From Isoetes taiwanensis (Eukaryota > Streptophyta > Lycopodiopsida > Isoetales > Isoetaceae): a DNA stretch of 64,000 nt. Within the stretch, counting starts at the first letter, position 1, and each line of letters opens with the position of its first letter. The stretch is from positions 6,060,563-6,124,562 of the forward strand of contig JAJEKV010000020.1 in NCBI GenBank assembly GCA_021234155.1, in the 5' to 3' direction. Positions 35,794 to 61,255 of this stretch are shown piece by piece. The notes under the pieces were generated by a model. It searched no databases. It saw only the letters and a list, made by a program, of their open reading frames with translations, and was not told where the DNA came from. Made by a program: the position numbers and the translations under genes.

Positions 35794-37444
35794 TATGACG
35801 TTCCAAGGGAATATACGCCATAAATACGTATATTCCTGGACCCGTCACCATACAAGTCTACCTAGGTAGCCTTGTATGCCTTGGATAAGTGGCAAGGGGT
35901 GCACATCTAAGTTAATTGTTTAACTTAGATAACCTTAGGATAAGGCTCATTTCCACATGGCCTTATCCTATTGGGCAACCGCCACACGGCCTTATCCTAG
36001 TGGTGCCACGTGGCATCCCAGGTGGACCCACACCTATATGAGCTCTAACCCTAACCCTAGACCCTTTTTCTCGACCTAGCACTGAACTCTCATCCACGTG
36101 CCCAAACCCCCGTTTGAAAGCACCGATTAAATCATAGCCTAGCACGGAGCAAAGAGCCCACGGAAGGTGTGTATGATCGTAGAGGGAGCAGGCCGAACCA
36201 CGCCTAGGAGCATGGAGACGCCGGGGAATGGGAGGAAGCGCTCGGAGGAGGTAGGTTGAGTAGAGTTCATGTTAGTTCATCCGGAAGTTAGCACTCGAGA
36301 TGGGTTAGTGATTCATTATCTAGAGTAGAGCCACCCTAGATCCTTTGTTGAACATCTTGAACCCTAATCAAGGAACTCTAACTATTAGTTAGCTATGTAT
36401 GATTAGGTTAAGATGTTCATATGATGTTGATGTTGATCATGACGTGATGTATGCGATATTGGTTGATCATGTTGCTCCTCTTGTATTGGGAAGGGGGTAG
36501 AGACCTAGGGCCATATGTAGTATGCTCCTAGTGTAGATCCCTTAGTTCCTATTAGTGGTGCGGCCTGTGCATAGGAACCCACTTAGGGCTATGGAGGCTA
36601 TGATGTGACTCAGCACCACATAACGGGCTAGAGGCAAGATGGAGGGTGGATCCTGCCGAAAGTGGGGGGGCCGGGGGATCCCATAGTGGGCTAGGCTTAT
36701 GGTGGGGTCACTTGCGTGTGGGCGAGCATGGGTCCGACACACCTCTGGGGCAATGGTGTCGCCCCGCCTCTCAAGAGTTGCAAGTGTCAGCTTGGCTCTT
36801 GTTTTGGGGGTTGGTCAGTGCGAATCGTGTGTTGCCACGACCAGAGCCGCCGTGGAGCCTCTAGACCCGGGGAAGGGGAGATGCAACCCTTCCTACCTCG
36901 TCGGACCAGGGAGATGCAACTTGGAGTAGTCCCGATGGGTGATGCCATGGGATTGCGTATCCGGAAGGTTAGAATCATGCCACAGCTTGATCTAGCCCAT
37001 CTGCAAAGTATGCACAGGAGGGGCGGATGGAGTGGTCAACCCTAGCCATTGTCTTACGCCAGCCCCGCCATTGTTATGACTCGGTCTGCTCTATCTTGAG
37101 GCCTATCCAGTCAGTCGCCTACCCTATGTGTCAGAGCCACGGGTAGGAGCTCTCATGTTTTATGGTATATGATTATGTTCTTTGCATCTATGGATATGCG
37201 GTTGAGCTACCCTTGGGGTAGCATATTGTATTGTATAGTATTGCTAGTTCTGACGTGTTTATGCTTCCGCTCTGATAGGAGCCCATAGGGGAAGGGCGCG
37301 CAAGACACCTTCGTGTCCCCTTCCCATGCTCCGGAGTTCCCCGAGTGCGGGATAGACGGAGGGCCTGTGCGGTTGTTGAGCCGGACGGGGGATTTCCTGC
37401 CGAGCGTACGGTCGAGCACCGTATGTTTAGCAGGGAGCGTCACA
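35794..37444 (+). repeat. 5' LTR of H3-element 1
   Basis: It matches 47319-48966 closely. The first bases read TATGACG against TGTGACG in the 3' copy, one mutation in the terminal dinucleotide. Inverted repeats lie near both ends: GGAATATAC … GTATATTCC, and TACGGTcgagcACCGTA at ~37409-37432. Confidence 0.95.
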
Positions 37445-37445
37445 A

Positions 37446-37457
37446 TGGTATCAGAGC
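37446..37457 (+). other. Primer binding site (initiator Met tRNA)
   Basis: TGGTATCAGAGC begins two bases after the LTR end. Confidence 0.95.
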
Positions 37458-37918: not shown

Positions 37919-37929
37919 CTTTTTAAATA
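37919..37929 (+). promoter_or_regulatory. TATA-like box before the H3-like gene
   Basis: TTTTTAAATAC lies about 95 bp before the ATG at 38019 and is followed by a CT-rich leader, a layout typical of plant promoters. The other three accessory genes of the two H3 elements have a TATA box at the same distance. Confidence 0.5.
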
Positions 37930-38018: not shown

Positions 38019-39122
38019 ATGGCTCGCACCAAACAGACAGCTAGGAAGTTCGGCGAGCGACCCACGCTCTCGATGGCGCAGGTAGCAGCGGGACGCCATA
38101 CGAAGAAAATCCCGGAGCACCTTCGACCTAAGAAGGGGGAAGAGGAGTTTCCCTCCAGCAGTAGTGACGCAACCTACCACGATGCAGAGGAGGAGGCGCC
38201 CAGCAGCAGCAGCTCTTCGTCGGCGGGCACCCAGAGAATTGGCGAGTCCCGACATTTTGGGCCCCACTCGGACACGGAGGTAGAGGAGCAGGTTGAAGAG
38301 CAGGTTGAAGAGGCGGGCCCTTCAGTGCCGAAGAAGAAGGGCAAGGAGAAGGTTACTGAGTGGCCGGAAGAGAGGGCTGCGAGGAAGAAGAGAGAGCGTG
38401 AGCGGGAGCTAAGGGAGCAGTGAAAGGTTAAGAGAAGGAATGACAGCCTCACGGATCAAGCCGTTATTGAAGAACCTCGTCAGGAGGAGGAAGCAGAGGA
38501 GCAAGAAGAGGAGGTAGAAGCAGAAGAAGAGGAAGACGAACGCGCCGGGGAGCCCTCAAACCCCGACGCTAGACCACCTTACCCGAAGTGGCCCAAGCCA
38601 CCCAAGGTGGTCAAGAAGCATATGGCGGGCGAACCGCAATCGCCCTGAGGGAGGAGCCTCTTCGACGCCGCCTGGCATTCGATTCCAGAATACCTCTGTC
38701 GGTGGACGAGGTATAATGACTGGTATTGCCGCCAGAACGTCGACCGCTACGTGAAGGGGGGCTGCCCTAGCAAGAACCAGCCCAAGCCGTCGCCGCCACC
38801 ACCGGAGAAGCCGAAGAAGGTCCACCATGGGCCTAACTTGCCACATGCCCGTGTTTTTCGAGAGATTAGGCACTTCCAACAGTGCACTAATCTCCTGATT
38901 AGGAAGGCACCATTCGAGCGGCTCATGCGGAAGGTGATGCAGGAGTTCCTCACCGACTATAGGGTGACGTCGCTCACAACTAGGGTGTTGCAGGTAGCCG
39001 CTGAGGCCGAGCTCACCCAGTTGTTCGAAGAAGGGAACCTCTGCGCGATCCACGCGAAGAGGGTGACCCTGATGCCCAAGGACATATACTTGGCACGCCG
39101 TATCCGCAAGGAGTACCCTTGA
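38019..39122 (+). CDS. Histone H3-like protein of a retrotransposon (two internal TGA)
   Basis: One frame of 368 codons including the stop. I chose ATG 38019 because it gives [10 protein letters not shown], identical to the first ten codons of histone H3 (Met plus A1-K9). A linker of about 265 residues follows, with Ser-rich, basic and strongly acidic stretches. The C-terminal ~90 residues (from about 38845) are an H3 histone fold: [17 protein letters not shown] (alpha-1), [14 protein letters not shown] (alpha-2), [15 protein letters not shown] and LARRIR (loop 2, alpha-3). By hand, about 55 of 89 fold positions agree with canonical H3. His113 and Asp123, used for H3-H3 pairing, are kept, as are Lys115 and Arg116. 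Loop 1 has canonical length, so it is not CENH3-like. TGA codons at 38421 and 38646 break the frame; both could be former CGA. No stop or shift occurs inside the fold. Position 10 is Phe instead of Ser. Confidence 0.9.
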
Positions 39123-39328
39123 GGATACAATTTTGTGTAAATTAATGTAATTGCTAAGTTCCCCCCATAAATATAAAATTTTGTTGCAGACTGACCTTAA
39201 TTTTTGTATGAAAATGTGTTAAGTAGCTCAAAATTTACTTTAGTTTTGACCATTAAAATTGGAATGTTCAAAGAAAATTAATTAGTTAAATATTCTAGCT
39301 TAATTAGTTGAAAAATTAAAAAAATTGG

Positions 39329-39405
39329 CGAAACCGGGTCGCGTTGCGCAAAACCCCTCTGCGTTCGCAACGCAGAGCCATTCTGCGCAACGCCACCCGA
39401 TTTCG
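39329..39405 (+). repeat. Palindrome A1 between the H3-like gene and ORF2
   Basis: Outer arms CGAAACCGGGTCGCGTTGCG and its near-exact reverse complement (20 of 22 positions) enclose a second stem, CTGCGTTcgcAACGCAG. A related copy lies 200 bp downstream. Confidence 0.8.
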
Positions 39406-39530
39406 GCATTCTGTCATTAATTGATGTCCAATTTGAGTAATAAAAGTTGCTAGTTAGGTTAGAAGCATGCTAAAAAGTCATATTAGGATCTTGAAATTCC
39501 CCGAAACTCTTCATAGAAGTAGAATTGACC

Positions 39531-39607
39531 CGAAATCGGGTCGCATTGCGCGGATACCGCCTGCGTTCGCAACGCAGAGCCATTTTGCGCGACGTGACCC
39601 GGTTTCG
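39531..39607 (+). repeat. Palindrome A2 between the H3-like gene and ORF2
   Basis: It has the same design and inner stem as 39329-39405, with outer arms CGAAATCGGGTCGCATTGCG and GCGCGACGTGACCCGGTTTC. About 17 of 22 arm positions pair. Confidence 0.8.
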
Positions 39608-39780
39608 CCCAAATTTGCCAGATTGACCAATTTTCATCCAACAAACTCCCATGTAGTATTTCTTGCTTTGCTTTGCTTAGAATTGCACTTCATGGTAGCT
39701 TATTTGGACACCCATGGCCATAGATTTGAAGTCTTCCCCATCCAGAACCCTTGTGCACGGAACCCGAGGCACCCCTAGCC

Positions 39781-39898: not shown

Positions 39899-41409
39899 AT
39901 GGCGCCATCAAGCTTTGTTAGATGGTCCAATGACTCCAATCACATCCGTGAAATCCCTGCTGAGCAAGCCTTTCATGTCTTTGATCATCTCTTTGATCTC
40001 CTTGCCACCTTGACCAGAACCCCCTACTACACTAACATCATTTGCCAATACGATCAGCACATTCTACCCTCGGAAGTTAGCTTGCCACCTAGGGGAGGAA
40101 AATGGGTTTCCTTAGACACTCTTACCCAAGCCATAGGCTGGGGATCCAGGGGCAAGAATAGGCTGTGGGATAGAACCAGAAACATGCCGAACTACATGAC
40201 CTGTAAGCATCATAGGCATAGGTACCTCTCAAACCAAGCAGCCTTAGCTTTGTTCATGCAGTACAGGGCAGTTAACCAACCAGGAGAGCCGTCAATTCAA
40301 CCATTGGATTTGGCACCTCTCAACACTCGGGCAGCACAGATAGGCATCCACGAGATCGAGACTGCAGCGTACGAACACTACGGCTCCACATCAGAAACAC
40401 CTGTGTTGCAGATTGAGCAAGATTATGAAGAGGAAGAGGAGGAGAACCCAAGTTGGGAGATGAGGGAGGCAAGAAGGATGGAGAGGCGTCTAGCTCGACA
40501 ACAGGAAGTACCAAGGCGGGACTTCGAGCCACCAGTAGGTATCACGGCCCTCACCCCGGTGATCATCGACGGCGAGGAGTACATATTCGCCACCGATATC
40601 CTCAACCTTCCCTATTGTCAAGAAGAGAGCCTCAGGATGGATGAGCTCCTAGGCCTAATGGCACAAGAGCAGGGCAGTGACTTCATCGACTACTCCTACC
40701 AAGAGATCCCAAGGGAGGTAGCCGAGCGACACTCCTACGCAGGGGAAACTATGTCGGACATCCAGGCGTACCAACAGATAAGGCAGATGTTTCAGCAACA
40801 GCAACCCGTCATTCCAGAAGAAGAATTCCAGGAGATCCAAAGTAGGTTGTACAAGCCGGGAAGAGGCCCAAGCTCAAGCCGACCAGTGCGCTCCGTGAGC
40901 ATGCGTGAGTCATCTAGCAGCATCAATCTGGAGAACGCAACAAGAATGTGGAGGGACCACGAAGATCTTACGGCAATAGATGTTTTCGGCGATGCAGCTC
41001 GGAGGAGGAGTACGGGAGCCACAGGGCCGAACTCAGGTACTATCTTCCGGCCCTTAGCCAAGGACAGATGATAGTCTTCCACAAGGAGTTCAGCCCAAGG
41101 GGTGAAGAATCCGTGGCGCTCCTCATAGCACTCACAGGCTTTGGACAACATGCCAAGATAGATTACAGAATGGACCATGTTATCCTCTTCAAAAGATCCG
41201 TAGCCCTTCATGCCCTCGACTTCGCAAGGGGCCACCTCAGAGATGCGCACTTGTCAGTAGTGGCGGCAACTGCACCAGAACTTCCGGCACCACAGATGGC
41301 AAGAGCATTGGAGGGAGGATCGGCGGCAAGAATCCTACAGAACATGGGCAAGGGCATAGGATTCAAGAATGTCAAGAACTTCTTCAAGTCTATGAAGCGA
41401 CAGCGCTGA
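39899..41409 (+). CDS. ORF2, conserved accessory protein of unknown function (two overlapping frames)
   Basis: The first frame runs 39899-41071 (390 residues, MAPSSFVRWSNDSN…) and has a globular N-terminal ~140 residues followed by an acidic, Gln/Arg-rich region. A second frame, open to 41409, carries ELRYYLPALSQGQMIVF, YRMDHVILFKRSVALHALDF and a basic end, FKNVKNFFKSMKRQR. Both parts have relatives in the same order in element 2 (57564-59120: MATEAFISWYS…, YYLPLLTEGRVIIF, VDHVILVKRKTALGIFDF). The pair therefore probably forms one protein, joined here by a frameshift or splicing event near 41000. I recognise no family. It has its own TATA box and sits just before gag. Confidence 0.65.
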
Positions 41410-41638: not shown

Positions 41639-42672
41639 CAAGGAACACAGGCTCAGGTTCTCAAGGCCGACATCACCAGTGGATACCCAGAAACCTATTT
41701 GGACGTGATCAAGATGACAACAACGACGAAATGACACCGGAAGCAATCAACGCAAGGCTCGTCCAGATGAGGAACCAGATGCATCAGCTGATCCACTGGG
41801 CCACCCCATTGATGAATGCCCAAGAATATGCACCTGCTCCACCACCACCTCCACCGCTACCTCAGCAAGGCATCGAGGAAGGTCCACAGCCGGAAGGGCA
41901 GGACAATCAGGGGAATGTCAGAGACAGGAAGAGGAAAAGGAGAAACAGAAGGAGTCTAACACCACCTAGCTCCAGTTCATCAGACACTTCAGACAGTCAA
42001 GACAGTTCTAGCTCAGAAAGTGAGTCCGACACTCCACAGGTAAGAGCCAGGGCAAGGAAGGAAGATGAATATCAAAAGAAAGTTGACAGTGCTATGAGCA
42101 ATGTGTGGAAGACTAGGAAGTTGGGTCAGTTCTCAGGGAAGGACAGGTCAGGTATGGAGGCAGAAGCCTGGCTCGATGAGATGGAAGAGTTCGGCAACTC
42201 TTATGGCATGAAGGATAAGGATATAGGGAAAGTTGCTACAGCAAACTTGATAGGGGCAGCTAGAATCTGGTGGAAAGGCTATGCGAAGTCCAACAAGCTC
42301 AAAAGGAACAGTTGCAGATTCAAGACTTTCAGCAAGGCTTTTCGCAGACATTATGTGCCTAGGTCACATACTAGCAGGCAGATCCAGCAGTTCTACAGGT
42401 TAAACCAGGGTACATTGTCAGTAGCAAAGTATACAGAGGAATTTATGCGACTTAGACTCCATGTTCCTGGGGTGTCGGAAAGGCAAGCGGTTGAAACTTA
42501 TATTGAGGGATTGAACAGCAATATCAAGAGGCTAGTCCGAGCAATCAACCCTAAGTCAGTGGCAGAAGCCGAGGATAAAGCCATAAGTTTGGAAGAAGCT
42601 CCAGCAACGCCAGGAGAGAGACAGTCGGCCTTCAAAGGAAAGTCAACGGGGCAGTACCAAGGGCAACAATAG
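41639..42672 (+). CDS. gag: Gag (capsid domain)
   Basis: The open frame extends upstream of the first Met (41731) to the putative splice acceptor. The stretch …PRNLF…MTPE… is shared with element 2, so the real start lies upstream. Residues after ~130 form the retrotransposon gag domain: GMEAEAWLDEMEEF, AARIWWKGYAKSNK, FSKAFRRHYVPRSH and VAKYTEEFMRLRLHVPG. A Ser/Arg-rich low-complexity stretch precedes it. It is closed by TAG at 42670, after which the same frame continues into the zinc knuckle, so gag-pol is one frame with a single stop. That TAG could be a read-through stop or a decayed CAG. Confidence 0.85.
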
Positions 42673-43971
42673 AGTAAGCAATCAGCAACTACGCCATCAG
42701 GAGGTCAGCAGCAAGGAAGAGCTCAGGGTAAGAACTTTGGGGACCGTAAGCCGCAGAATGCATCAGGGGGCAGCGTGTTAAAGCGTATTCTAGACAGCCT
42801 GACGAAAGAGAAGAGACAGGAATGTATTGAGAAGAAGCTATGTTTCAGGTGCTTCCAGCTAGGGCACCGAACACATGATTGCCCATTCGTCATGCAGGCA
42901 GCGTTGGCAGAGCTTATGGATTGGGATTCACCAATAGAAGCGGATGAGGACGACGACCAGCATGAGGCCCAGGACTTCATAGATGGTGAGTGCCATATCT
43001 GTGCAAATATTGAGTCAGATGATATAGAAAATCAGTCGACAGTGATTGCGGCTGATGGAATCATAGATAGCAATCCATATGTAGTCCTCATAGACACAGG
43101 TAGCTCTCACAATTTCGCCTCTCCTAGGCTGGCTGCCCTAATGAAGAACAAAGTATTGAAGTCTAAGCCAAGGCCAGTTGCTATGGCAAACGGCGCCATT
43201 CGGCACACTAAGGGGAGGAGGATTACATTCGACATAGACCTTAGTGGAAGTAAGTGGCCGATGGGGGCAGAGGTCATGGAGATCGGAAGGTATGACCTTA
43301 TAGTAGGAATGGAGTTCCTAAAGCCAGTGAAAGCCATGATCGACTGCGACCGCAATGAAGTTGCCATGACAGCACCGGACGGCACCAAATTCATAGTGAG
43401 AGGTAAGAAGGCAGCTTCTTCTATGCAGTGTATTTCTTTGAAGCAGCTAAGGAAAAATATAGAAAGAAATAAGGTGGAGTACATTTTGAGATTAGAGGCA
43501 ATTGAGCCCAATAAACAGGATGGAAACGACCAAAAGGGGAAGCAGTTGCCCAAGCCAGTAGCAAGGCTTATTTCGGAATTCAAGGATGTATTTCCGGATG
43601 AATTCAAGGATGTATTTCCGGATGAAATCCGGCAGCTACAACCTTATAGGGGTGTGGAGTGTGAGATCACATTAGCACCAGATGCTAAGCCTACCAGCAA
43701 GGCACCATACAGGATGAGCATTCCGGAGTTGGTTGAGCTCAAGAAGCAACTCCAGGAATTGCTTAAGCTTGGTTTTATTAGAGCAAGTGTGTCTCCTTTT
43801 GGAGCACCTATACTCTTCGTGAAGAAGAAAGATGGCAGTTTAAGAATGTGCATAGACTATCGCCAGCTCAACAAGCAGACGGTAAAGAATAAGTATGCAT
43901 TGCCAAGGGCGGATGATTTGATGGACCAGCTCCAAGGAGCAAAGGTATTCTCCAAAATTGACTTAAGGTAA
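42673..43971 (+). CDS. pol: Zinc knuckle, aspartic protease, RT N-terminal half
   Basis: Same frame as gag. [14 protein letters not shown] (about 42841) is a CCHC knuckle. [15 protein letters not shown] (about 43080) is the protease active site with DTGS. The linker [17 protein letters not shown] and the RT start, up to [20 protein letters not shown], follow. The frame ends at TAA (43969), where element 2 has Ser in DLRSGYHQI. The repeated segment EFKDVFPD (about 43577-43625) is a local 24-bp duplication. Confidence 0.85.
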
Positions 43972-44874
43972 GGATACCACCAAATAAGGATTAAGGAGGA
44001 AGATATCCATAAGACCGCCTTCAGAACGCGGTATGGTAACTTTGAGTTTACAGTAATGCCCTTTGGATTGTCGAATGCTCCAGCAACCTTTATGCGCCTC
44101 ATGAACGACGTCTTCAGGGATTTTCTAGATGAGTTTGTCATTGTCTTCTTCGATGACATTCTAGTCTACAGCAAGTCCATTGAAGATCATAGTCAGCATT
44201 TGAGAAGGGTATTAGAAAAGTTAAGGCGGCATCGTTTGTATGGAAAGCTCTCCAAATGCCACTTTGCTACTGAAAGAGTGGAGTACTTGGGCCATGTCAT
44301 ATCGGCGGAAGAAATCTCCACCGACCCCGCAAAGATTGAGGCAGTAGTGGATTGGCCAGCTCCAAAGAATGTGGCGGAAGTAAGAAGCTTTCTAGGTCTG
44401 GCAGGTTATTACAGAAAGTTCGTGAAGGACTTCGCTAAGTGGGCGTCCCCTTTGACGGACCTCACCAAGAGTGTTAAGGTGAAAGATTGGAGAGCACATT
44501 GGTTAGAGAATGTTCAAGCTTCATTTGAAAAGCTTAAGGAGGCTTTAACAACAGCACCAGTGCTAGTTCTGCCAGATCTAGACAAGGATAAGATAGTAGC
44601 AACAGATGCAAGTAAGATAGCAACAGGAGGAGTCCTTATGCAAGAAGGAAGAGTAATAGCTTATGATTCCAAGAAGTTGAACGACACCGAGCAGCGCTAT
44701 CCAACCTATGATCAGGAACTTCTAGCTATCGTCAAAGCCCTTCGTATTTGGAGGCATTATTTGCTTGGGAGGAAGTTTCAGTTAGATACTGACCACCAGA
44801 GCCTCCAATACATCTTTACCCAACCACTCCTGAATCTAAGGCAAAGGTGGATGGAAATTCCTAGAAGAGTATGA
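43972..44874 (+). CDS. pol: RT catalytic half and RNase H
   Basis: This continues the same frame after the TAA. It shows [12 protein letters not shown], the catalytic [21 protein letters not shown], and RNase H with [12 protein letters not shown] and [11 protein letters not shown]. It is broken near 44860 by a one-base shift just after LNLRQRWME, where element 2 continues into [20 protein letters not shown]. Confidence 0.85.
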
Positions 44875-46482
44875 TTTCGAGATTGCTTATAAGCCAGGTA
44901 AGTTGAATGTGGTCGCCGATGCTCTTTCTAAAAGACCTCTTGAAACGAGAACACATTGTAATGCTATATCAACTCTTTCCAGTGGGTATGGCAAGAAAAT
45001 TGAGGAGACATTACCATCTGATGGTGATTTCAAGGAGGTATGGGAAAGCCTCTCCAGGGAGGCTAGAACAGATAAGGAACGAGAAGCCTTCAAGCATTAT
45101 AAGAAGGAAGGCAACTTGTTGTACCATAAAGATAAGTTGTGTGTGCCCGAATTGTCAGGTATAAGGAAGCTAATCCTTCATGACACACACAACAGCCCAA
45201 TAGCAGGGCATGCAGGTTTTATGAAGACCTACTTCAAGATTCGAAATAGCTACTTCTGGCCGGGAATGAAGAAGCATATAGCAAGGTATATTCGTGAGTG
45301 CCGGTTGTGTCAAGAAACCAAAGGCGGAGCAGCCAATTCCGGGAGCCTTGGAACCTCTAGCAAAAGGCGAAATGCGAGAAGTGGGAAGTGGTAAGTATGG
45401 ATTTTATCCACAGGACTTCCCAAGACTCTTCGAGGCAAGGATGCATTGATGGTCGTAGTAGACAAATTATCTAAGATGGTACATTTTGTGCCTTGTAGAA
45501 CTCTGAGACAAAGATTAGATCTTGCCAAGCTATTTGTGAAGGAGATTTTTAGGCTCCATGGCATGCCTCGGGAGATAATATCTGATAGAGATTCCAAGTT
45601 TATGAGTGCTTTTTGGCAGGACCTCTTCAGACCATTCAGGGCGAAGCTCTCCATGAGCACACTTATCATCCCCAAACGGATGGTCGACGGAGAGGGCCGA
45701 ATCGAATCTTGGAAGACATGCTCGGAAGCTTTGTGTGGAATAAGCAGTCCAAGTGGGATGAGTATATCCACTTGGTGGAATTCGCCTACAATAGTGCCAA
45801 GCAGGAGTCATCTCAGATGTCTCCTTTCATGGTAAATTACGGGTACCAGTGCTTAACCCCGGATACTTGGCACAATCCCATGTCAAAGGTTGAAGTGTCC
45901 CAGCAGATGCTAGGAGATATGCAGCAGTTGGTGGAAGAAGTGAGGGGTTACCTCCTAGCAGCAAGAAGTCGGCAGAAGAGTGTAGCCGACAAGCACAGGA
46001 CCGTATACAAGGTAGGCGATAGCGTGTGGTTGAAGATCAAGGTCAAGCAAGCTAAGCTTCGGATTGGGAGTTGCAAGAAGCTTGCCCCTAGGTGGGCTGG
46101 TCCGTTCAAGATTTTGGAGAGAGTGGGCTCCCAAGCCTACAAGTTGGATCTTCCGGCCCATCTCAAAGTTCACAATGTTTTCCACGTAAGTTTGTTAAAA
46201 AGGCACAATCCTAACCCTGAGGAGGTTTTGGATACTCCAACCTTGTTGGAAATGACGGAGGAGCAAGTGGAAATCGTGCCTGAGTTACTTCTTGATAAGT
46301 CATTCAAGAAGACTAGGAGGTCTCAGTTCCTCCAGTATTTGGTCAAGTGGAAGCACTTGCCCGTGGAAGACGCGACATGGGTATTGAAGCAGGATTTGGA
46401 GAAGCAATACCCAGAATTTATGAAGGAGTTTGATGGGCGAGTCGTTTCCGACTGGGTCGACCCCGACTCACCAGGAGGTTAG
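44875..46482 (+). pseudogene. pol: Integrase with C-terminal chromodomain, frameshifted
   Basis: The RNase H end and zinc finger (44903-45394) show [12 protein letters not shown]-like coding, [13 protein letters not shown] and CRLCQ. Frameshifts lie near 45320 and 45690. The catalytic parts are MDFI, EIISDRDSKFMSAFW and NRILEDML. The final frame to TAG 46482 has the GPY/F motif RWAGPFKILERVGSQAY and a chromodomain, FLQYLVKWKHLPVEDATWVL. Chromodomains in this position define chromoviruses and can direct integration into marked chromatin. Of the aromatic cage that binds methyl-lysine, only the Trp of VKWK is clearly kept. Confidence 0.85.
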
Positions 46483-47318: not shown

Positions 47319-48966
47319 TGTGACGTTCAAAGGGAATATATGCCATAAATACGTATATTCCTAGACCCGTCACCATACAAGTCTACCTAGGTAGCCTTGT
47401 ATGCCTTGGATAAGTGGCAAGGGGTGCACATCTAAGTTAATTGTTTAACTTAGATAACCTTAGGATAAGGCCCATTTCCACATGGCCTTATCCTATTGGG
47501 CAAACGCCACACGGCCTTATCCTAGTGGTGCCACGTGGCATCCCAGGTGGACCCACACCTATATGAGCTCTAACCCTAACCCTAGACCCTTTTTCCTGAC
47601 CTAGCACCTGAACTCTCATCCACGTGCCCGAAACCCCGTTTCGAGCACCGTTCGTCATAGCCTAGCCTGGAGCAGCAGCCCCTGGAAGGTGTGTATGATC
47701 GTAGAGGGAGCAGGCCTTCGAACCACGTCTAGGAGCATGGAGACGCCAGGAATGGGAGGAAGCACTTTTGGAGGAGATAGGTTGAGTAGAGTTCATGTTA
47801 GTTCATCTGGAAGTTAGCACTCCAGATGGGTTAGTGATTCGTATCTAGAGTAGAGCCACCCTAGATCCTTTGTTGAACATCTTGAACCCTAATCAAGGAA
47901 CCCTAACTATTAGTTAGCTATGTATGATTAGGTTAAGATGTTCATATGATGTTGATGTTGATCATGACGTGATGTATGCGATATTGGTTGATCATGTTGC
48001 TCCTCTTGTATTGGGAAGGGGGGTAGAGATCTAGGGCCATATGTAGTATGCTCCTAGTGTAGATCCCTTAGTTCCTATTAGTTGCGGCCTGTGCATAGGA
48101 ACCCACCGGGCTATGGAGGCTATGATGTGACTCAGCACCACATAACGGGGCTAGAGGCAAGATGGAGGGTGGATCCCTGCCGAGTGGGGGCTTCAGGGGA
48201 TCCCATAGTGGGCTAGGCTTATGGTCGGTCACTTCGTGTGGGCCGAGCATGGGTCCGACACCTCCTGGGGCAATGGTGTCGCCCTGCCTCTCAAGAGTTG
48301 CAAGTATCAGCTTGGCTCTTGTTTTGGGGGGTTCAGTCGGGTACGAATCGTGTGTTGCCACGATTCTCTAGCCGCCCGTGGAGCCTCTAGACCTCGGGAA
48401 GGGGAGATGCAACCCTTCCTACCTCGTCGGACCAGGGAGATGCAACCTGGAGTAGTCCCGATGGGTGATGCCATGGGATTGCGTATCCGGAAGGTTAGAG
48501 TCATGCCACAGCTTGATCTAGCCCATCTGCAAAGTATGCACAGGAGGGGCGGATGGAGTGGTCAACCCTAGCCATTGTCTTACGCCAGCCCCGCCATTGT
48601 TATGACTCGGTCTGCTCTATCTTGAGGCCTATCCAGTCAGTCGCCTACCCTATGTGTCAGAGCCACGGGTAGGAGCTCTCATGTTTTATGGTATATGATT
48701 ATGTTCTTTGCATCTATGGATATGCGGTTGAGCTACCCTTGGGGTAGCATATTGTATTGTATAGTATTGCTAGTTCTGACATGTTTATGCTTCCGCTGTG
48801 ATAGGAGCCCATAAGGGAAGGGCGCGCAAGACACCTTCGTGTCCCCTTCCCTTATGAGTTCCCCGAGTGTGGGATAGACGGAGGGCCTGTGCGGTTGTTG
48901 AGCCGGACGGGGGATTTCCTGCCGAGCGTATGGTCGAGCACCGTATGTTTAGCAGGGAGCGTCACA
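47319..48966 (+). repeat. 3' LTR of H3-element 1
   Basis: It begins TGTGACGTTC and ends GCGTCACA. It matches the 5' LTR throughout. Confidence 0.95.
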
Positions 48967-50060: not shown

Positions 50061-51721
50061 TGTGACGTCCCCTACTCGTATACGGTGCACTCACCGTATA
50101 CAAACAGGAGTTCATCCCCCATACCAGCTCCATGCTAATACAGGGCCCTCCACATGACACTGCAACCGTGTCGGGTTCCAGTGGGAAGAGTGGAAGGGTC
50201 ATTACACCGTCTTCCTCGGGGCCTACCTAGCTTTGCGGGCGTAAACATACATGTCGTTAGCACATACATCAACATCATATGACCATCACGAAGGATGGTC
50301 CTCCACATATCTGCATAGACAAAGATCAAGATCGCACATAGGAAATCCTACCCAAGGCTCGGACTCAAGGGATGACCGGACGCTTGGGTCTCTCAGAGTT
50401 CATTGCGCATGGAATTCATGGCAATGGATTTGGCTGGCATATGAACATGGCTTAGGGTTGTCCACTCCATCCGCCCCTCCTGTACGCACTTTGCAGAGTG
50501 GTCTGAAAAGTGTCGGGGCCTGACTGTAGCCCGCCGGATGCATAGCCAAGAGGGCTACTCCTGGGCTCATCTTCCCGCCCGATGGGGCGGTAGGGATCAC
50601 TCCCTCCAGATCTACATGCCGACTCAAGGTGGCTAGAGGGCCTTTGCCGTGATCGGGACTGAACCCACCGGAAGGTGAACACCACCCCACGGGTGTCGAG
50701 CCCATGCCTTGCCCCTTGACGCGGTGGCAAGCCATTGGACCTAGCCACAATGGTTCCCGGTAGGCCTTACACACCAGAGGAACCGTTCATGAGTCAGGAC
50801 ATGAACCTCCTTCTCAGCCAGTCTGGCCCCTTCACCCACATCCCGGTGTGGCTCTTGCGCACAGGCCGAATCTACAGTGTGCTAGAGAGGCTACTCTAGG
50901 AGCATCAACTACAAAGCTTTAGGTCTCTACCCCCCTTCCCAATACAAGGAGTTCATAGAGATACATCATCCATATACATCACAGAAGAACTAAAGAACAA
51001 GATCTAACCTACAACATAGAGTTAGGTTCTTTAGTTAGAATCTGCTATCTAGAGATCTGGATGGCCAATCTAATAGGCTAAACCTACTGATTCAATGACT
51101 AAATTAGGGTTTAGACTATCTAATTGGCCAAATACCTGATCCTTGAGGGGCTCCTCCTGACCTGAGCTCGACCATCCTGCTGAAACGCTCGAATCTAGAG
51201 AAACTAAGGATGCAACTCTCCTAGCCCGAGTCTGGGATGCGGTTTTGGCTGTTGAGGCAGCCAAAACAGAGTCCTGAAGCCCTAAAATCAAAAATTGGGC
51301 TAGTTAGGGTTTCCTACTCTATATAGACAAGGGAGTTGGCTAGGGTTTCCAATTATCCCCTTTTGGCATGTGGGATAATTGGAACATGGGCCCACTTGCC
51401 TTTAAGGGCTAGGTGGCCAAATGTGCACACATGGAAATGTGTGCCCACATTAATGTGTACCTTGGAAAAGGTGCACATTAATTGCACCTATGGGTGTGGC
51501 CCACTTGGCATGAAGTGTCCACTTGGAAATGTGTGCCCACATTAATGTGTACATTGGAAAATGTGCACATTAATAGTTGCACATATTTCTGGCAAGTTGC
51601 CCCCTAGGGCTACTCACCTGGCTACACGCTAGCGTACACGTCACCGGAGTGGGCGGTACGCGTGACGCAGGCAAAGCGGTATATACGCCCCGGGCGATAT
51701 CTTTGGCTTTGGAACGTCACA
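50061..51721 (-). repeat. 3' LTR of H3-element 2
   Basis: It matches 61782-63445. On the minus strand it starts TGTGACGTTCC and ends GACGTCACA. A perfect 10-bp inverted repeat, GTATACGGTGcactCACCGTATAC, lies at 50079-50102, corresponding to the TACGGT…ACCGTA repeat of element 1. The shared block CTTGTATTGGGAAGGGG (minus strand) is also present near 50935-50951. Confidence 0.95.
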
Positions 51722-51757
51722 TTCTCCCCACCTTGAATTGATGCTGTCCGCAGCATC
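51722..51757 (-). other. Polypurine tract plus hairpin before the 3' LTR
   Basis: The minus strand reads GATGCTGcggaCAGCATC (51757-51740), then the purine run AAGGTGGGGAGAA (51734-51722) against the LTR. Compared with element 1, the outer pair is G-C instead of A-T, so pairing is kept by a double change. Confidence 0.75.
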
Positions 51758-52574
51758 GTGGGTCTCCCCACCTTGGGATCAACCTGACCTGCAACAACTT
51801 GATACATACGATGGCTACTATAATTCCTACACATTTATTAAAATTACCTTAAGGTAATATTTTTATGACATTATCACATTGTTGTATTATACCATAACTT
51901 ATCAATTCACAACATTACTAACAGATTACTCCAAGATTCACTTAACATTACAATTAAGTTCATCAAAATTTAGAATTAACGTCCGAGGTACTCTTCATTC
52001 CTTGCAACACATTCCAACAAAATTTGTGTTGCAAGTCTTCGTAGCCCGACCTCCTTGCCCTCCGGAGCGCTCTACTGGCCTGCAGGTCGACACTACGTTA
52101 GTACCATTTAATTATTAAATAAAATTTTGGTTATATGGTGACCACCCCACCTATCTACATGGATGCATGGCTAATCTCCCGGCGTAGGAAGAGGGTGAAT
52201 CTTCCATTATGGCCGCGGAGACAGCGCCTATATGCCTATATGCCGCTCATGCCTACACCTCTAGTTGCCCAGCGTGGAGGATATCCTTCTCGCGTGGGGG
52301 GCGCGAAGGATAGATTCCTCCTATCAAAGCATATATGGGGCTAAAGGTGCTTTCCCTATCAATGCATTCCTTCATGACCTCCTTTCTCTCGAGGTCGTCT
52401 ACTTCCGTGGGACAGAAGTAGACTTTCTAATCTACCTTCCACTCTCCCAAACGGAAACGCGGTCATGCCTACATTGACATTACACCCGCGCCCTAGAGAT
52501 CACCGTAGTGGTCCCATCATCGGTAACAACGCATGCACCCATACTAAGCATAGGTTGCATGCGAGATTAATCTT
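51758..52574 (-). other. 3' untranslated region of H3-element 2
   Basis: No gene recognised between the chromodomain and the polypurine tract. One CCCATCATCG (minus CGATGATGGG) near 52507 recalls the tandem motif of the other elements. Confidence 0.5.
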
Positions 52575-53152
52575 ACTACACAAGAATTAACCTACACAAA
52601 TCGACATGCCCGAGCCGATTTCTTGAGGAGATGACCTTGCCGCCCCATTGCTCCATAAACCGTGGATCTTTGCTTTACTAAATCTTTCTTAAGTACCCAC
52701 GCCGCGTCTTCCACCGGTAAGTGTTTCCACTTGACCAAATACCGAGGAATTTCGATCTCCTCGTTTTCTTGAAAGCTTTATCAAGAATCAATTTCGAACT
52801 ATCTCCAAATGCTCCTCCGCCATTTCCAACAACGTTGGCGAATCCAAGACTTCATCCCGGATTTGGAGTATGCTTCTTCAACAAACTCACGTGGAAGACC
52901 TTATGAATCTTTAGGTGTCTTTGGCAAATCTAGCTTGTAGGATTGATTACCTACTCTCTTGACTATTCCGAAGGTCCAGCCCACCTTGGAGCAAGCTTCT
53001 TGCAATTGCCGATCCCGAAGCCACCGCTTCACCTTGATCTTGAGCCAAACATCATCTCCAACTTTGAACTCTCTTATCGTTCGATGCTTGTCTACGATAC
53101 TCTTCTCGACGACTTCTTTGCCGCTAGCGTGATAACCTCGAACTTCTTCCAC
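52575..53152 (-). pseudogene. pol: Integrase C-terminus and chromodomain, frameshifted
   Basis: The minus frame 53152-52901 shows IREFKVGDDVWLKIKVKRW and a GPF-like region (GWTFGIVKRVGNQSYKLDLP). Further on, with shifts, YLVKWKHLPVEDAAWVLKKD (about 52730-52670) is the chromodomain, nearly the same as in element 1. Confidence 0.75.
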
Positions 53153-54743
53153 GAAGCCGCGATATCGGCCAACATCTCGGCCGCGAAACTTCCACTTTTG
53201 ACACGGGGTTGTGCCAAGTATCCGAGTTAGGTAATCGATAGCCGTAATTGATCATAAACGGCGACATTTGGGATGATTCCTGCTTGGTGCTATTGTATGC
53301 AAACTCCACCAAGTGAATAAATTCTTCCCACATACTTTGCTTATTCCAGACATAGTTTCGTAGCATGTCCTCTAAAATCCTGTTGGTCCGCTCCGTCTGA
53401 GGATGATATGCCGTGCTCATGGATAGCTTCGTCTGGATTGTCGCAAAGAGGTCTTGCCAAAAGGCGCTCATGAACTTCGGATCCCTGTCGGAGATGATCT
53501 CCCTTGGCATGCCATGAAGCCTGAAGATCTCTTTGGTGAAGAGCTTTGCTGTATCCATAGCTGTATCTGTGGTCCTGCAAGGCACAAAATGTGCCATCTT
53601 AGACAACTTGTCGACCACTACCATCAAAGCATCCTTCCCTCTTGCTGTCCTTGGGAGTCCTGTGATGAAGTCCATGCTGATTACCTCCCATTTAGCGTTT
53701 GGCACCGCTAATGGCTCTAATGCCCCTGGAATTCGAAGCTGCTCCGCCTTTGTCTGCTGACATAGCTGGCATTCCTTGATGTAGCGAGCTATTTGCTTCT
53801 TCATTCCTGGCCAATAATAGCTGCTGCGCACCTTGAAATATGTTTTCATGAATCCCGCATGGCCAGCTATTGGGCTGTTGTGCGTGTCATGGAGGATCAA
53901 CTTCCTTACACCTGATGATTCGGGTACGCACAACTTGTTCTTATGGTATAACAGGTTGCCTTCCTTCTTATAATGCTTGAAGGCCTCCCGCTCTTTATCT
54001 GTTCTAGCCTCCTTAGAAAGGCTTGCCCATACTTCTCTGAAATCCACATCCGTTGGCAAGGACTCTTCAATCCTCTTACCAAAGTCGCTGGAGAGCGTCG
54101 AAATTGCATTGCAATGCACTCTAGTTGTCAGGGGATGCCTTGAAAGCGCATCTGCTACCACGTTGAGCTTCCCCGGCTTGTAGACTATATCAAAGTCATA
54201 TTCTTCGAGGAACTCCATCCATCTCCGCTGCCTCAGATTAAGGTGTGGTTGCGTGAATACATATTGGAGGCTCTGGTGGTCTGTATCCAACTGGAACTTC
54301 CTTCCCAAAAGGTAGTGCCTCCAAATTCTTAATGCCCTGACAACCGCAAGCAATTCCTGATCGTGCGTTGGGTAGCGCGTTTCGGCGTCGTTCATCTTCC
54401 TGGAATCATACGCTACCACGCGCTCTTCTTGCATAAGCACTGCACCTGTAGCTATCTTACTCGCGTCAGTCGCTACAAGCTTATCTTTTTCCGGGTCCGG
54501 CAGGGTTAAGACTGGGGCTGTTGTTAAAGCTTCCTTCAACAATTCAAACCCTGCTTGGGCTTTCTTGTGCCAATGCTCTGCCCAATCTTTCACTTTCTCC
54601 GCCCGCGTCAAGTCTGTTAGCGGGGCTGCTATCTTGGCAAAGTTCTTTACGAACTTCCTGTAGTACCCTGCTAGGCCGAGGAAACTTCTGACTTCATGCA
54701 CATTCTTCGGGCGCCGCCATCGAATCACCGCTTCAATCTTCAT
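53124..54743 (-). CDS. pol: RNase H and integrase
   Basis: An intact 539-residue frame. RNase [44 protein letters not shown]. Integrase zinc finger: [20 protein letters not shown] … CQLCQQ. Catalytic core: [31 protein letters not shown] and [12 protein letters not shown], with D, D and E all present. It is the best-preserved enzyme segment in the window and serves as a reference for the broken copy in element 1. Confidence 0.9.
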
Positions 54744-54770
54744 GGGTCCGTTGAGATGCCTTCGCCGAGA

Positions 54771-55223
54771 TCACATGACCAAGGTATTCCACCTTCTCGC
54801 AAGGCGGTGGCACTTCGACAACTTGGCGTACAACTGGTGTCTCTTCAACTTCTCCAGCACTCTTCTCAAGTGTTGTACGTGCTCTTCAAGGGATCTGCTA
54901 TACACCAAAATGTCATCAAAGAAAACAATCACAAAGGTGTCCAGGAACTCCCTGAAGATATCGTTCATGAGCCTCATGAATGTTGCGGGGGCATTTGATA
55001 AGCCGAAAGGCATTACCGTGAACTCATAATGCCCATACCGCGTTCTGAAGGCGGTCTTATGGATATCTTCTTCCTTTATCCTGATCTGATGATAACCTGA
55101 CCTTAAGTCGATTTTGGAGAAGATCTTTGCACCTTGAAGCTGATCCATCAAGTCGTCTGATCTTGGAAGCGCATATTTGTTCTTAATGGTGTGCTTGTTC
55201 AACTGCCTATAGTCTATGCACAT
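54771..55223 (-). CDS. pol: Reverse transcriptase catalytic part
   Basis: [53 protein letters not shown] and the catalytic [12 protein letters not shown] are all intact. The next frame (54743 down) follows after a shift near 54770. RT N-terminal sequence lies upstream in other frames. Confidence 0.9.
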
Positions 55224-56340
55224 CCTTAGACTGCCATCCTTCTTCTTAACAAAGAGAATGGGCGCCCAAATGGCGTAAACACTAGGTCTAATAAAACCTA
55301 GGTCAAGCGGCTCCCAAGAATCGCTTCTTTAGCTCCGACAATTCCTGCGTTGTCATTCTATATGGAGCCTTGCTCGTTGGCTTTGTTCCTGGCTCGAGTG
55401 CAATCTCGCACTCAACTCCCCTGTATGGAGGGAGCTGCTTGATCTCATCTGGAAAGAGATCATGGAATTCGCGGATCAGCTTAGCTACTTGCTTCGCAAC
55501 TTGTCGAGCACCTTGTCTTCTTTGGTTCCTTCCGATTCAGCTCGCTAATCTCAAGCTTGAAGATGTATGCCACTTGCTCACTCTTGATGCACTTGAACAG
55601 CCGTTTAGAAGACATACACGCGCATGATGGGGAACAACTTCCTTACTGTTATCTCAATGATCTTGCCGGGCGTTGGGAAGGTCACCTTCCGCTTCCACCG
55701 CCGATAATGGCCCCCGCCGCCCGAGGTACTCCATTCCTATGATCAAGTCATACTTGCCAATGCCCATTACCTGCCCCTATCCGATATTAATCCCCGGCAA
55801 GTCGATGTCGGTTAATTCTCTTGCCCGCCGCCCCGCCTTTATTGCACCACTTGCTAAGACAACGGGTCTTGGCTTTGACTTTAGCGGCTTCAACTTCAAC
55901 ATTTGAACCATTCGGGGGATGCAAAGTTATGGCTGCTTCCCGAGTCTATCAAGACTATGAAGGACTTGGCCTTGGCCTTCCCTACCGTGGAAATTACCTT
56001 ATCGGGCTCTCTCGCTTGCTCAGATCTATTGCGGCAAAGATATGACACTCACCCCAATGTAGTCGCTGGCCTCTTCGCCGCCGCCGCTCGGACCGGGGCA
56101 TCCCAATCTCCCAACTCCGCTAGAGCCGCACTCATGACGAGGGGCAGTTTGTCGTCCTATGGTTCTGGCCGGAAGCACTCGGGCACAGCTTGCTTTTCTA
56201 TGCATTCCCGCCTCTTTTCCTTGGGCATTGCCTCGCAAAAGGATCGCGACCGCTTTGGAGTAGTTTGACCCCTCCCGCTTGTCCTTGAAGGACACCCGCT
56301 TCTTCTCCGGCTTTGTTTCCCGGGTTCCCACCATATGGGG
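55224..56340 (-). pseudogene. pol: Zinc knuckle region, protease and RT start, heavily shifted
   Basis: The protease active site is readable as [18 protein letters not shown] near 55955-55900. Around it, many small shifts break the frame. The knuckle region before it (minus 56334-56026) is only partly readable. The unusual density of small indels in this GC-rich stretch may partly be consensus error. Confidence 0.65.
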
Positions 56341-57382
56341 TCTAGCCGGACTGGACTAGCTGCCCCGGGGCTATAGCTTCCCGTCGCCTTGCCTTTATCC
56401 CGAAATACCGGCCGCTTACGCCTGGCTATTCGGAGGTCCCCACCCCCGCAAGCTTATAGCCTTGGATTCCGCTTCGACATTGTCCCTAGGGTTTATTGCC
56501 CTCACAAGCTTATGGATCTCCTCATTCAGCCCCTCAATATAGCTTTCATCGCATGCTTCTCTCCCAACTTCGGTGACATACTGACCTTAGTCTCATGAAT
56601 TCCTCTCAGATATTTCGACTGATTTGTTGCCTTGCTGCAACCTGTAAAACCGGCCTTGCATCATCTTTGGACTTATGTTCCCTCGAACGTAATGGCGCTT
56701 TGAAGGCTTTAGCAAACTTTACGAACTTACAAGCATCCCCGCTTAAGCCATGTGCCTTTGCATAACCCTTCCACCAAATCCGGCGGCTCCTTTCAAGTTG
56801 GCTGTTGCAACTCTGCCTTTGTCCTTATCCTTCATGCCATAAGCATTTCGTGCTTTCGCTCATTTCGTCCAGCCCATGCCTCTGCTTCCAATCCCCGACT
56901 GTTCTCCCCGAGAACTGTTCGATTCGGGCCTTCCATACATTGCCGGTCGCGGAATCTACCTTCTTCTGGTAGTCGAGGCCCCGGTGTCTCTTTTGTCGTC
57001 CATCGGGGTATTCCTCCGCCTTCAGATCCATTGGATTTCTCGAAGCCTCGTTTCTTCCTCTTCCTGAGGTGAGTCCGAAGTCCGGAACTTGAGTCGGAAG
57101 ATTCCGGGCTGGAGGATCTCCTTCTCTTGCTCCTCTTCTTGTCTTTTCCTGCCCTCCGAGCTGATGCTTGCGGCAACTGAGCGTTGCCCACCGAACCCAC
57201 TCCTGCTTGCGCGGACAGTAATGCCTTTATCTGCTCCAGGTCCGTCCTCATCTGGGCTATCTCCTCCTCTGGGGTCATGGGTTCCATATCCTCAAATAGG
57301 TTCCTTGCCGGGGGTGGTCTGGGTGGGGTTTGCTCTTCTATAAGATCTCGCAGTTGTCGTTCCCCTGCGTTTAGGCCTCTAG
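56341..57382 (-). pseudogene. gag: Gag, frameshifted
   Basis: The first frame begins just after an AG acceptor at 57383 (…CATGCAG) and reads ARGLNAGERQLRDLIEEQ, then PARNLFEDMEPMTPEEE, matching the RNLF…MTPE start of element 1 gag. A Ser/Arg/Lys-rich stretch follows. QKKVDSATGNVWKAR at about 56985 begins the capsid domain in another frame. The rest is broken. Confidence 0.7.
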
Positions 57383-57563
57383 CTGCATGCACAAGCAATT
57401 CATGGTTATATGATTAGTTCCTTTGTTCTCTTGCATTGATTATGCTTGTTGGTATAATTGTGGGGCAAAATACATCAACAAAACATTTAAAGTGCAATAG
57501 GATTTATATTCATATATCATATAATATTTTAGATACAAAAAGTCTCCGGGATCAAGAGTCTGA
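57383..57563 (-). other. AT-rich spacer / probable intron end before gag
   Basis: Non-coding, ending in TGCATGCAG on the minus strand, at the same place as the spacer at 41410-41638 of element 1. Confidence 0.45.
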
Positions 57564-59120
57564 CTAGTCTTGAAATCGCCGGTAAGACGGGTTGTCCTCG
57601 AGAAACTTCTTTACTTGGGCTGTACCTACTGTACTTCCCAAGTTCCTGAGTATATCCCTTGCTGTTCCCCCTCGGATGGCGGATGCTAGCTCTTCCACCC
57701 GTCTATGGGAGGTATGAGCTGCCGTTACTGCCAACCTACCTTGTCGAAGGTGGGGTACTGCAAAGTCGAAGATGCCCAAGGCTGTTTTCCGCTTCACTAA
57801 AATGACATGGTCCACCTTTTCTGATAGGCGTGCGTGCATGCCAAATCCCTAGAAAGTGCTACCAAAGATCTCGCAGACGCCTTCCTCTCCCGTGGGCTGA
57901 AGCGGCCAGAAATATTATTACTCTACCCTCTGTTAGGAGCGGAAGGTAATATTTGAGTGTCGCCCGGCACTCCTCCACGTGCCCCTGAGGTGCCCCTGTG
58001 CCTTGATGCATACTGGTCTACGGGTACTTGAACTAATTCCTTGTAATCGTGGAAGAGCGTTCGTACACTTGTCAGGTTTGTGGCTCTCCCTTGGAATTTT
58101 GCTATCTGTTCTTGTGAGGAAGAAGACTCCCCTTGAAGTACTCTTGTTGTCTTCCCCCTTATTCCCATCTCAAGCCTCGGTGCTATAAACTCCTCCTCTC
58201 AGAGGGAAGTTCCTCCGACATCATACCTCCGAGATAGTGCCGTAAGCTTCAATGTCCGAGATGGTGTGTCCTGTGTAAGTGGTCGCCTCTCGTATTTTTG
58301 TACCGGAAAATCTTCCGTTTCTTGGTCGATGAAGTCTTCTAGATCCGGGCTGTTGCCGTAGGGAGGTGAAGGAGTTCATCGACGCGGTAGCCTCCGGCCC
58401 CCAAGCATTGGGGAGGTTTTGATGTCATTTAGCAGCAAGTATTCCCGTCCTTCGACTATGACCGGTGCTAGACTTGTTATTCCTGTACCCAATTGGTTGT
58501 GCAATCCTCTGGTGGGTGGTCCAAAAACCAAGCGGGTGATGTCTTGTTCCGCTTCCCCGGCGTTCCTCCTCCCGGGTCCACCTCTATGTCATCCTCGCTT
58601 CCCTGCTCGGAGTCTTCACTCTCTTGGATGCTTCTCGCTATGGTCTCTTCAGATTCAAGCCAGAGGCGCGTTCGGTCATTCCAAGGCCCAAGGGTGTGAC
58701 TTCTAGCGGCTGAATTGATGGTTCACCTATTACGGTTTTTCGCCCCTATATACTAGATATAGCGCTAAGGTCGTGGTTGTAGGAGAAGAAGACTTTGCCA
58801 TTGCTTGTTAGGGTCATGTAGGTTGGTAAGCGGTTGGTTCTTGTTCCTCAATGCCTTGGCAATATTGGGTACATGATTGAGGGTCGCTGTTTGCAATGCG
58901 GTCCTTGGTACAAAGTACCCTATGCATGGCGGTATCTTCGTAAGCTAGGGACAACTTTCTCTTGGAATTCCTCGCAGGACTTGGCCGGCAGAAAGGATTG
59001 GAGTTCGTGGTTCTTTGAAAGGTCAAATTCTTTTTGAAATACTTGGAATACTATATTGACATCTACTTCAGTGATGTGGGGGGAGGCGCTATACCAACTG
59101 ATGAAGGCTTCTGTAGCCAT
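57564..59120 (-). pseudogene. ORF2 of H3-element 2, frameshifted
   Basis: It starts MATEAFISWYSASPHITEVD at 59120, similar to MAPSSFVRWSNDSNHIREIP of element 1 ORF2. The middle is broken by several shifts. Recognisable later parts are KYYLPLLTEGRVIIF (about 57955-57910) and VDHVILVKRKTALGIFDF (57839 onward) through to a stop at 57564. Conservation of both ends in order shows it is the same gene. Function unknown. Confidence 0.65.
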
Positions 59121-59231
59121 GGCGAAGAGCGTGCTGCCGATGTCAAACGAAACTGGGAGCGCCTGACTAAGCTGAAAGATCGCCTCAATTGCGGGAGCAG
59201 TTCTGTGGTTGAGGTTTAGGGGTTATGCGGG

Positions 59232-59242
59232 GATATATATAG
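59232..59242 (-). promoter_or_regulatory. TATA box before ORF2
   Basis: The minus strand reads CCCTATATATATCC about 115 bp before the ATG at 59120. Confidence 0.55.
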
Positions 59243-59423
59243 GGAATTTATGCCCTAAAATTTTTAGGGTTTCTAAAACTCCTGACATTTGGGATGAGGC
59301 TAATGTTTCTTGGTTAATTTGAGGCTCGAAGTGGCTTGCCTATAGTCTTAGGGTTCTAATGCAACAAATTTTGGTCGATTTGGGTATGTCTAGCTCAAGT
59401 TATGAACTTGGGAAGTTCGGGCG

Positions 59424-59490
59424 GCTCTAAGAGTGCGCGGGAGGGGTGTTAGGTTGGGACCTAACTAGGCTCTGGCGCACTCTTGGAGTC
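59424..59490. repeat. Palindrome B1 (between the H3-like gene and ORF2)
   Basis: Outer stem CTCTAAGAGTGCGC / GCGCACTCTTGGAG and inner stem TTAGGT / ACCTAA. It is one of four copies in this element. Confidence 0.85.
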
Positions 59491-59632
59491 ACTGGTGAAA
59501 TTACTCCAATTGTTCCAAAACTAATACTGTGCCTAATGAATGTACATTCTTAAACAACTATATATTTTATTATTCAAAATTTTATACATCAGATATAATC
59601 CTGTTAGTTACAAAAAAATAATTTCCCTTCTA

Positions 59633-60833: not shown

Positions 60834-60941
60834 TGTAATGACAAATATTCCCGATTTGGAGCAGGGCGCCAAAAGATCGGCTAATGAGAAGGAGCTCGTG
60901 GAAGCACGGGAGAAACCTAAAAAATGAGCCTATGTCCCGTA

Positions 60942-60948
60942 ATTTATA
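60942..60948 (-). promoter_or_regulatory. TATA box before the H3-like gene
   Basis: The minus strand reads CCCTATAAATTACGG about 110 bp before the ATG at 60833. Confidence 0.6.
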
Positions 60949-61058
60949 GGGTTGGATTTTTAGGGTTTGGTCGATTTAATCTTCTGGTGGTTTTGTTGGC
61001 AAAAGTCTCCCTGTCTTGGGCGAAATTGGGGTCTTGTTTGGTGCTGCTTCTTCGAATG

Positions 61059-61125
61059 GCTCTAAGAGTGCGCGGGAGGGGTGTTAGGTTGGGACCTAAC
61101 TAGGCTCTGGCGCACTCTTGGAGTC
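61059..61125. repeat. Palindrome B2 (leader)
   Basis: Nearly identical to 59424-59490, about 110 bp upstream of the H3 TATA box. Confidence 0.85.
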
Positions 61126-61255
61126 GTCGGCCTTCTCTGCTCCAACACACCCAATTTACACAATTTACATGCTGTTACTCCCTAATTTAAGCATTTTAAG
61201 CAGGATCCTATCATTACTTTGACCCTTTTTATTAATTTACGTTTAATTTTAAGGG

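Follow-up and report, generated by a model that had tools for sequence, protein, structure and literature searches.

The nearest working parallel to the gene described here is CpBV-H4, a bracovirus H4 that joins host nucleosomes and is reported to alter host gene expression via its N-terminal tail (PMC5423620). In both cases a single core histone is encoded by a genetic parasite; CpBV-H4, however, is an H4 of a wasp-borne DNA virus, whereas the present gene encodes an H3 of putative function and sits in a retrotransposon. Large DNA viruses, Marseilleviridae among them, likewise encode histones that are able to form nucleosomes (PMC9145170); these are joined doublets in which all four core histones have distant counterparts, in contrast to the lone H3 found here. 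Influenza NS1 also copies an H3 tail motif, in its case a short ARSK motif at the C-terminus (PMC10208167). Additional open reading frames beside gag-pol, comparable to the H3 gene and the further frame ORF2 treated below, are on record for plant LTR retrotransposons, and the word histone occurs zero times in the main text of that account (PMC7264820). Plant group II chromoviruses, whose chromodomains had been reported solely from plants as of 2012 (PMC3350952), have LTRs, primer site, gag-pol order and an incomplete-cage chromodomain in common with our element, which differs by two additional genes, H3 and ORF2, that separate the primer site from gag; the searched literature contained no element of this kind. 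The sequence-only reading had known of no histone in an LTR retrotransposon, and a full-text search of openly licensed PubMed Central found none among the papers listed; a word search of a review of viral histones (PMC9145170) returned neither retrovirus nor retrotransposon. The carrier at this locus is an LTR retrotransposon and not a DNA virus, so that retroelements join DNA viruses as captors of histone genes.

The window, that is, the whole stretch of Isoetes taiwanensis DNA that was analyzed, spans 64,000 nucleotides, and all positions given here refer to it. Its central element, E1, is flanked by a 5-base target duplication, TGTCC (35789-35793 and 48967-48971), and bounded by a 5' LTR (35794..37444, plus strand) and a 3' LTR (47319..48966, plus) that are 94.35% identical. 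The primer site TGGTATCAGAGC follows at 37446..37457 (plus) and is of the initiator tRNA-Met type. Gag lies at 41731..42672 (plus; Retrotrans_gag PF03732, E 1.1e-17) and pol at 42775..46482 (plus), the latter encoding protease, reverse transcriptase-RNase H, integrase and a terminal chromodomain (PF00385, E 2.1e-11) and being split into several frames in E1. With PF03732, PF19259, PF24626 and PF00385 all above cut-off, a Ty3-type gag and an integrase ending in a chromodomain are combined with the LTR pair, target duplication and primer site of a chromovirus (Ty3/gypsy), and the H3 gene does lie in a complete chromovirus, as had been proposed. The E1 chromodomain lacks the full aromatic cage of group I and resembles group II: W45 is present, and I and L replace Y24 and Y48 (read by eye).

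E1 thus encodes, within a retrotransposon, an H3 that bears the tip of the H3 tail. The H3-encoding frame at 38019..39122 (plus), whose coordinates proved correct, begins with the tail tip of 10 residues (38019..38048), continues in translation through a charged linker that includes a segment directly preceding the fold (38049..38840) and ends with the H3 fold and its stop (38841..39122). This layout of tail, linker and fold agrees with the sequence-only reading, as do the approximately 265 charged residues seen between tail tip and fold in the translated frame; the single frame that it assumed is nevertheless not open, as TGA codons interrupt it at 38421 and 38646. Likewise, the initiator Met and residues 1-9 are identical to H3, as had been stated for the N-terminus, but residue 10 is F where H3 has S. 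The proposed order of primer site, H3 and gag is right, except that ORF2 intervenes before gag from 39899 onward. A TATA-like box, TTTAAAT, is located 97 nt 5' of the H3 start (37922..37928, plus).

The assignment of the fold to H3 rests on several comparisons. Against PF00125 the E1 fold scores E 3.2e-30 and 105 bits, compared with a cut-off of 26.4, far beyond chance. A sequence search places the nearest solved chains at 104-108 bits, the top one being named "histone domain-containing protein" and the following ones H3.2, H3.1 and H3.3, and named chains among the 60 matches listed are H3 for the E1 fold as well as for that of a second element, E2. Structure prediction of the isolated E1 fold also returned nucleosomal H3 chains as top matches (E about 1e-6), although the model is weak, with a pLDDT of 62 and a TM of about 0.5. 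Identity to canonical H3 amounts to 62% for the E1 fold and 47% for the E2 fold, and the two folds are 46% identical to each other. The protein thus has the fold nearest to H3 and the N-terminal tail A1-K9 of H3; the remaining tail, S10-K36, and the H3 length of about 135 residues are absent, about 260-315 other residues preceding the fold. Influenza NS1, by comparison, is not known to have a histone fold. Centromeric H3 (CENH3) has a longer loop 1; the alignment to H3 is ungapped through loop 1 and the best matches are H3.1-H3.3, and an origin from CENH3 was rejected.

E2 is a second H3-bearing chromovirus of the window (50061..63445, minus strand), with LTRs at 61782-63445 and 50061-51721, a target duplication ACGGT, the same primer site TGGTATCAGAGC and the same gene order as E1, namely primer site, H3, ORF2, gag and pol. 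Its H3 tail, made of the same ten residues, and the first part of its linker lie at 60402..60833 (minus), followed, after a frame change near 60400, by the second part of the linker and the fold at 59633..60352 (minus; PF00125, E 5.4e-22). The H3 frames are therefore broken in both window elements. Comparison of the E1 and E2 tail codings shows 7 differences in 30 nucleotides, all synonymous, and in a simulation of seven random changes in codons 2-10 the peptide was kept in 3 of 400,000 trials. A third, related chromovirus, E3 (4778-24136; LTRs 4778-6410 and 22513-24136), yielded no H3 by tblastn within the window, its 5' internal part being decayed or lost.

To place these copies in their genomic context, the host assembly was searched (1,658,258,908 bases in 1,110 contigs). 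The exact 10-residue tail is encoded at 1,051 places, host genes included, and the reversed pattern at none. The E1 fold query gave 8,695 and the E2 fold query 7,943 first-look candidates, which are not confirmed copy numbers; 150 were scored for each, all of them significant. A core-histone family query similarly gave 8,705 first-look candidates, all 150 scored being above cut-off and the eight best being ordinary 136-residue H3 genes. As a control, canonical H4 was queried as a protein: 69 candidates came up, with 43 matches and 16 full-length genes among them. Of these two histones, H3 is amplified in this genome and H4 is not, and the genome perhaps holds thousands of element H3 gene copies. 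Among the best 150 E1-type matches listed, 45 frames reach at least 360 residues without a stop (hand count) and most are shorter than the whole gene. At least 47 E1-type folds are followed, at a distance of 1.5-2.6 kb and in the same orientation, by ORF2 (hand count, best 150 per query). The E1 reverse transcriptase query gave 30,936 candidates, 142 of which were scored, so that H3-less elements of the E1 kind may be common. Outside this genome, searches of viral contig and genome contig collections yielded no usable locus; five H3 proteins were matched in a protein database, none of the four examined having a matching linker or tail, and another protein search returned mostly fused or duplicated ordinary H3s among the best 120 of 2,125 matches (8,000 scored).

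Tail-type copies were sampled in three ways: from a list of about 100 places that encode the exact tail, presumed host genes being excluded (L029-L048), at about every seventh rank of the E1-fold matches (L049-L068), and mostly for long frames (L069-L076). The 36 exact retrotransposon tails (34 loci and two in the window) represent 31 different codings. Residue 10 in these tails is P in 13, V in 8, Y in 6, F in 5, A in 3 and R in one, and never S, tails continuing with STGG having been counted as host (n = 8, equal to the number of canonical genes in the set). With residue 10 variable and never S, the conserved part ends at K9. The tail could be located in 18 of the 20 E1-type folds sampled by rank, a less biased set; it is exact in eight and reads MARTKQTYRK in three, and MARTKQT is kept in 15. 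Relative to E1, codons 1-10 of this sample display 51 synonymous and 21 non-synonymous changes, compared with 48 and 66 in codons 11-20. Six of eight E2-like copies, assigned by fold and mostly chosen for long frames, have the exact tail somewhere in the locus, and the other two carry one change. Altered tails thus occur in some long-frame copies: MARTKQTYRK in a 361-aa frame and, in the two E2-like exceptions, a single-change tail at 394 aa and MARRKQTARK in a 456-aa frame. Both the boundary past K9 and A7Y, as a change that is tolerated, lend themselves to direct tests.

The clearest aligned block outside tail and fold is the segment directly preceding the fold, which is not H3-like in tail types. 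Within the fold, R69, R72, R83, C110, H113, K115, R116, T118, D123 and L126, which in nucleosomes point towards H4, DNA or the partner H3, are kept in all tail-type rows tabulated (E1 and E2, a set of nine and a set of three), while E2-type folds have P instead of R63 and Y instead of R129. D77E, considered as a derived residue common to E1 and E2, was dropped, as host H3 itself has E77; ten of the eleven such residues remain.

Tail tip and fold are under purifying selection. In four intact E1-type copies pN/pS is 0.076 for the tail, 0.185 for the linker and 0.059 for the fold, and the corresponding values in three intact E2-type copies are 0.060, 0.262 and 0.071. Relatives with a different N-terminal domain in place of the tail behave similarly: their folds have a median dN/dS of 0.038 (88 pairs with dS 0.05-1.5), and within the same dS range N-domain, linker and fold yield 0.094, 0.221 and 0.043 for type A (12 copies) and 0.096, 0.124 and 0.019 for type B (6 copies). 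All dN/dS and pN/pS sets favour intact copies, and L065, L069, L070 and L071 stand outside the pN/pS sets. Natural variants under selection amount to a free mutational scan of important H3 residues.

The relatives with an N-terminal domain were studied in 20 sister loci (L009-L028) picked from the 150 top-scoring matches because their open frames are long. All 20 encode a C-terminal H3 fold in proteins of up to 459 residues, and the H3 tail tip is present at the N-terminus of none of them. The domain in its place comprises about 190 residues, is novel and fused to H3, and evolves under purifying selection (dN/dS about 0.09); Pfam gave no match to it in the four tested. E1-family gag/pol pieces follow downstream in 18 of the 20 loci, the exact primer site is found in 13 and a detectable ORF2 in 12. 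Other copies, E2 among them, thus keep H3 at the position where the sequence-only reading expected it. The gene is an H3, it occupies a fixed place in its elements, and it is abundant.

In the fold phylogeny, E1, E2 and a third group, which make up the tail types, cluster as one clade with support 98/95. The split between all retrotransposon H3s on one side and host plus canonical H3 on the other is weakly supported (83/74), which is compatible with a single capture of all of them as well as with two. A first tree, with E1 and E2 as its only tail types, left their placement undecided and carried a long-branch warning; the trees used chosen rows, and L025 was left out of the first.

Upstream of the tail-type genes, 17 of the 18 located E1-type copies have a TWTAWAW box at -94 to -100, and 32 of 36 tail genes, versus 4 of 8 host H3 genes, have a TATA-like box between -118 and -90. 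TATAWA was found within 260 nt of the chosen H3 start in 2 of the 20 sister loci, both near -240. A promoter of its own for every H3 gene was rejected accordingly: it holds for most tail-type copies and fails for N-domain types. ORF2 occupies 39899..41409 (plus) as two overlapping frames in E1, with a TATA box 118 nt upstream; TATAWA is located 85-89 nt 5' of ORF2 in 8 of 11 apparent true starts listed. Judging from the TATA-like boxes of both genes, the tail-type H3 looks like a separate transcription unit. The E2 ORF2 (57566..59120, minus) is broken, and part of its C-terminal region is 44% identical to the E1 counterpart. ORF2 had no Pfam match above cut-off in the E1 copy of the window and four other copies, its protein database search retrieved no relative at E 0.01, and its structure model, at pLDDT 40, is useless. 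The host genome contains 6,992 first-look candidates (150 scored), some with frames of 540-590 aa. A programmed frame switch in E1 ORF2 was rejected, several other copies being single 547-aa frames.

Retroelements are silenced via modification of histone H3, and an element-borne H3 with just nine K4/K9-bearing residues, lacking S10 and the rest of the tail, would arm the parasite in this contest. The explanation that we prefer is that a lineage of LTR retrotransposons captured a host H3 gene, which would have become an element gene, equipped in the tail type with a TATA-like promoter of its own. Its product would pair with host H4, the likely partner because H4 is not amplified, enter nucleosomes, and display A1-K9 on the tip of an arm of ~270 residues. 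The H3 tail past K9, with S10, K14, K18, K23, K27 and K36, appears no longer recognisable in the element protein; such nucleosomes could engage K4/K9 readers and writers, and K27/K36 marks and an S10 switch would be impossible. The most likely benefit would be that element copies, above all new insertions, escape silencing. A standard nucleosome is not assured because of P63 and Y129 in the E2 type and the non-H3-like segment before the fold, and neither tail nor promoter can be needed by every relative, because N-domain types are devoid of the tail tip and mostly of TATAWA. The altered tails of some long-frame copies, the broken H3 frames of E1 and E2, the weak model of the isolated fold and the TATA-like boxes of half of the host H3 genes likewise speak against it. 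That an H3 variant made by the element joins host nucleosomes, presents K4 and K9 at the end of a long arm devoid of the later tail sites, and counters silencing is a proposal to which we would give a little short of an even chance. The broader proposal, a class of retrotransposons that sets its own chromatin state through its own histone variant, built into host nucleosomes and bearing either a counterfeit K4/K9 tail or a new N-terminal domain, is advanced slightly more tentatively.

The chromodomain in which the E1 integrase ends could also suggest a role in integration, element H3 linking the integrase complex to chromatin while a K4/K9 reader or the element's chromodomain holds tail or linker, and the fold lies in or near target nucleosomes. 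Such a tether would be in line with the conservation of the tail tip, which is higher than that of any other block apart from the fold, and the factor bound by plant group II chromodomains was given as still missing by 2012 (PMC3350952). With I and L at Y24 and Y48 (by eye), however, the E1 chromodomain is group II-like (PMC3350952), so that methyl-lysine reading by integrase is doubtful, and a chromodomain-end pol piece was already present in 3 of the 20 partial sister loci, all without the tail. We consider a tether unlikely.

A free H3-like protein might instead serve as a soluble decoy that titrates H3 chaperones and K4/K9 methyltransferases or demethylases, weakening silencing outside nucleosomes. 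Residues 1-9 of H3 are the substrate region of the K4/K9 enzymes, which speaks for such a decoy. The ARSK motif of influenza NS1 provides a precedent for tail mimicry (PMC10208167). A fold at pN/pS 0.06-0.07 with its nucleosome contacts kept would nevertheless be unneeded, unless a chaperone is the target, and we regard a decoy as improbable.

Condensation of element RNA or cDNA by the element H3 in a nucleosome-like manner inside particles has in its favour a basic fold, with a net charge of +3 to +7 in 12 copies, and the existence of viral histones forming nucleosome-like structures (PMC9145170). The linker, on the other hand, is about equally acidic and basic, the H3 gene is unfused to gag and seemingly transcribed separately, and the absence of amplification in the H4 search lowers the odds of self-contained packaging; we therefore think packaging very unlikely. 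That the gene is a captured passenger hitchhiking without function is barely credible: host-gene capture by plant LTR elements is known (PMC7264820) and most of the 150 listed E1-type frames fall short of the whole gene, but pN/pS and dN/dS are low across divergent copies, exact tails number 1,051 (host genes included), and the place beside ORF2 and gag is conserved.

Several further features were noted in and around these elements. Two long hairpins lie between H3 and ORF2 of E1 (39320..39615, plus; folding z-scores -8.1 and -7.3); they are nested and unrelated in sequence to the repeated hairpins of E2, located in the leader and after H3 (61055-61580 and 59430-59500, minus; z -8.1 for the whole unit and -3.7 for a cut unit). 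The gag frame seems to be extended 5' of its first ATG, with a shared RNLF, to a splice-acceptor-like AG in both E1 and E2 (about 41640-41731, plus, and 57390-57280, minus; by eye), the acceptor being putative. On contig C217 (120970-132589), three identical tail codings are spaced 5.8 kb apart, one of them E1-type (L046), possibly as a tandem array. E3 hosts a nested LTR element (7243-18303) whose genes are encoded on the minus strand, and an older element seems to carry E3 itself within its LTR. Finally, a 19-base unit is repeated in tandem over a long stretch at 29729-32250, and a LINE-like open reading frame of 920 aa (33107-35869, plus; type assigned by eye) ends just inside the E1 5' LTR.
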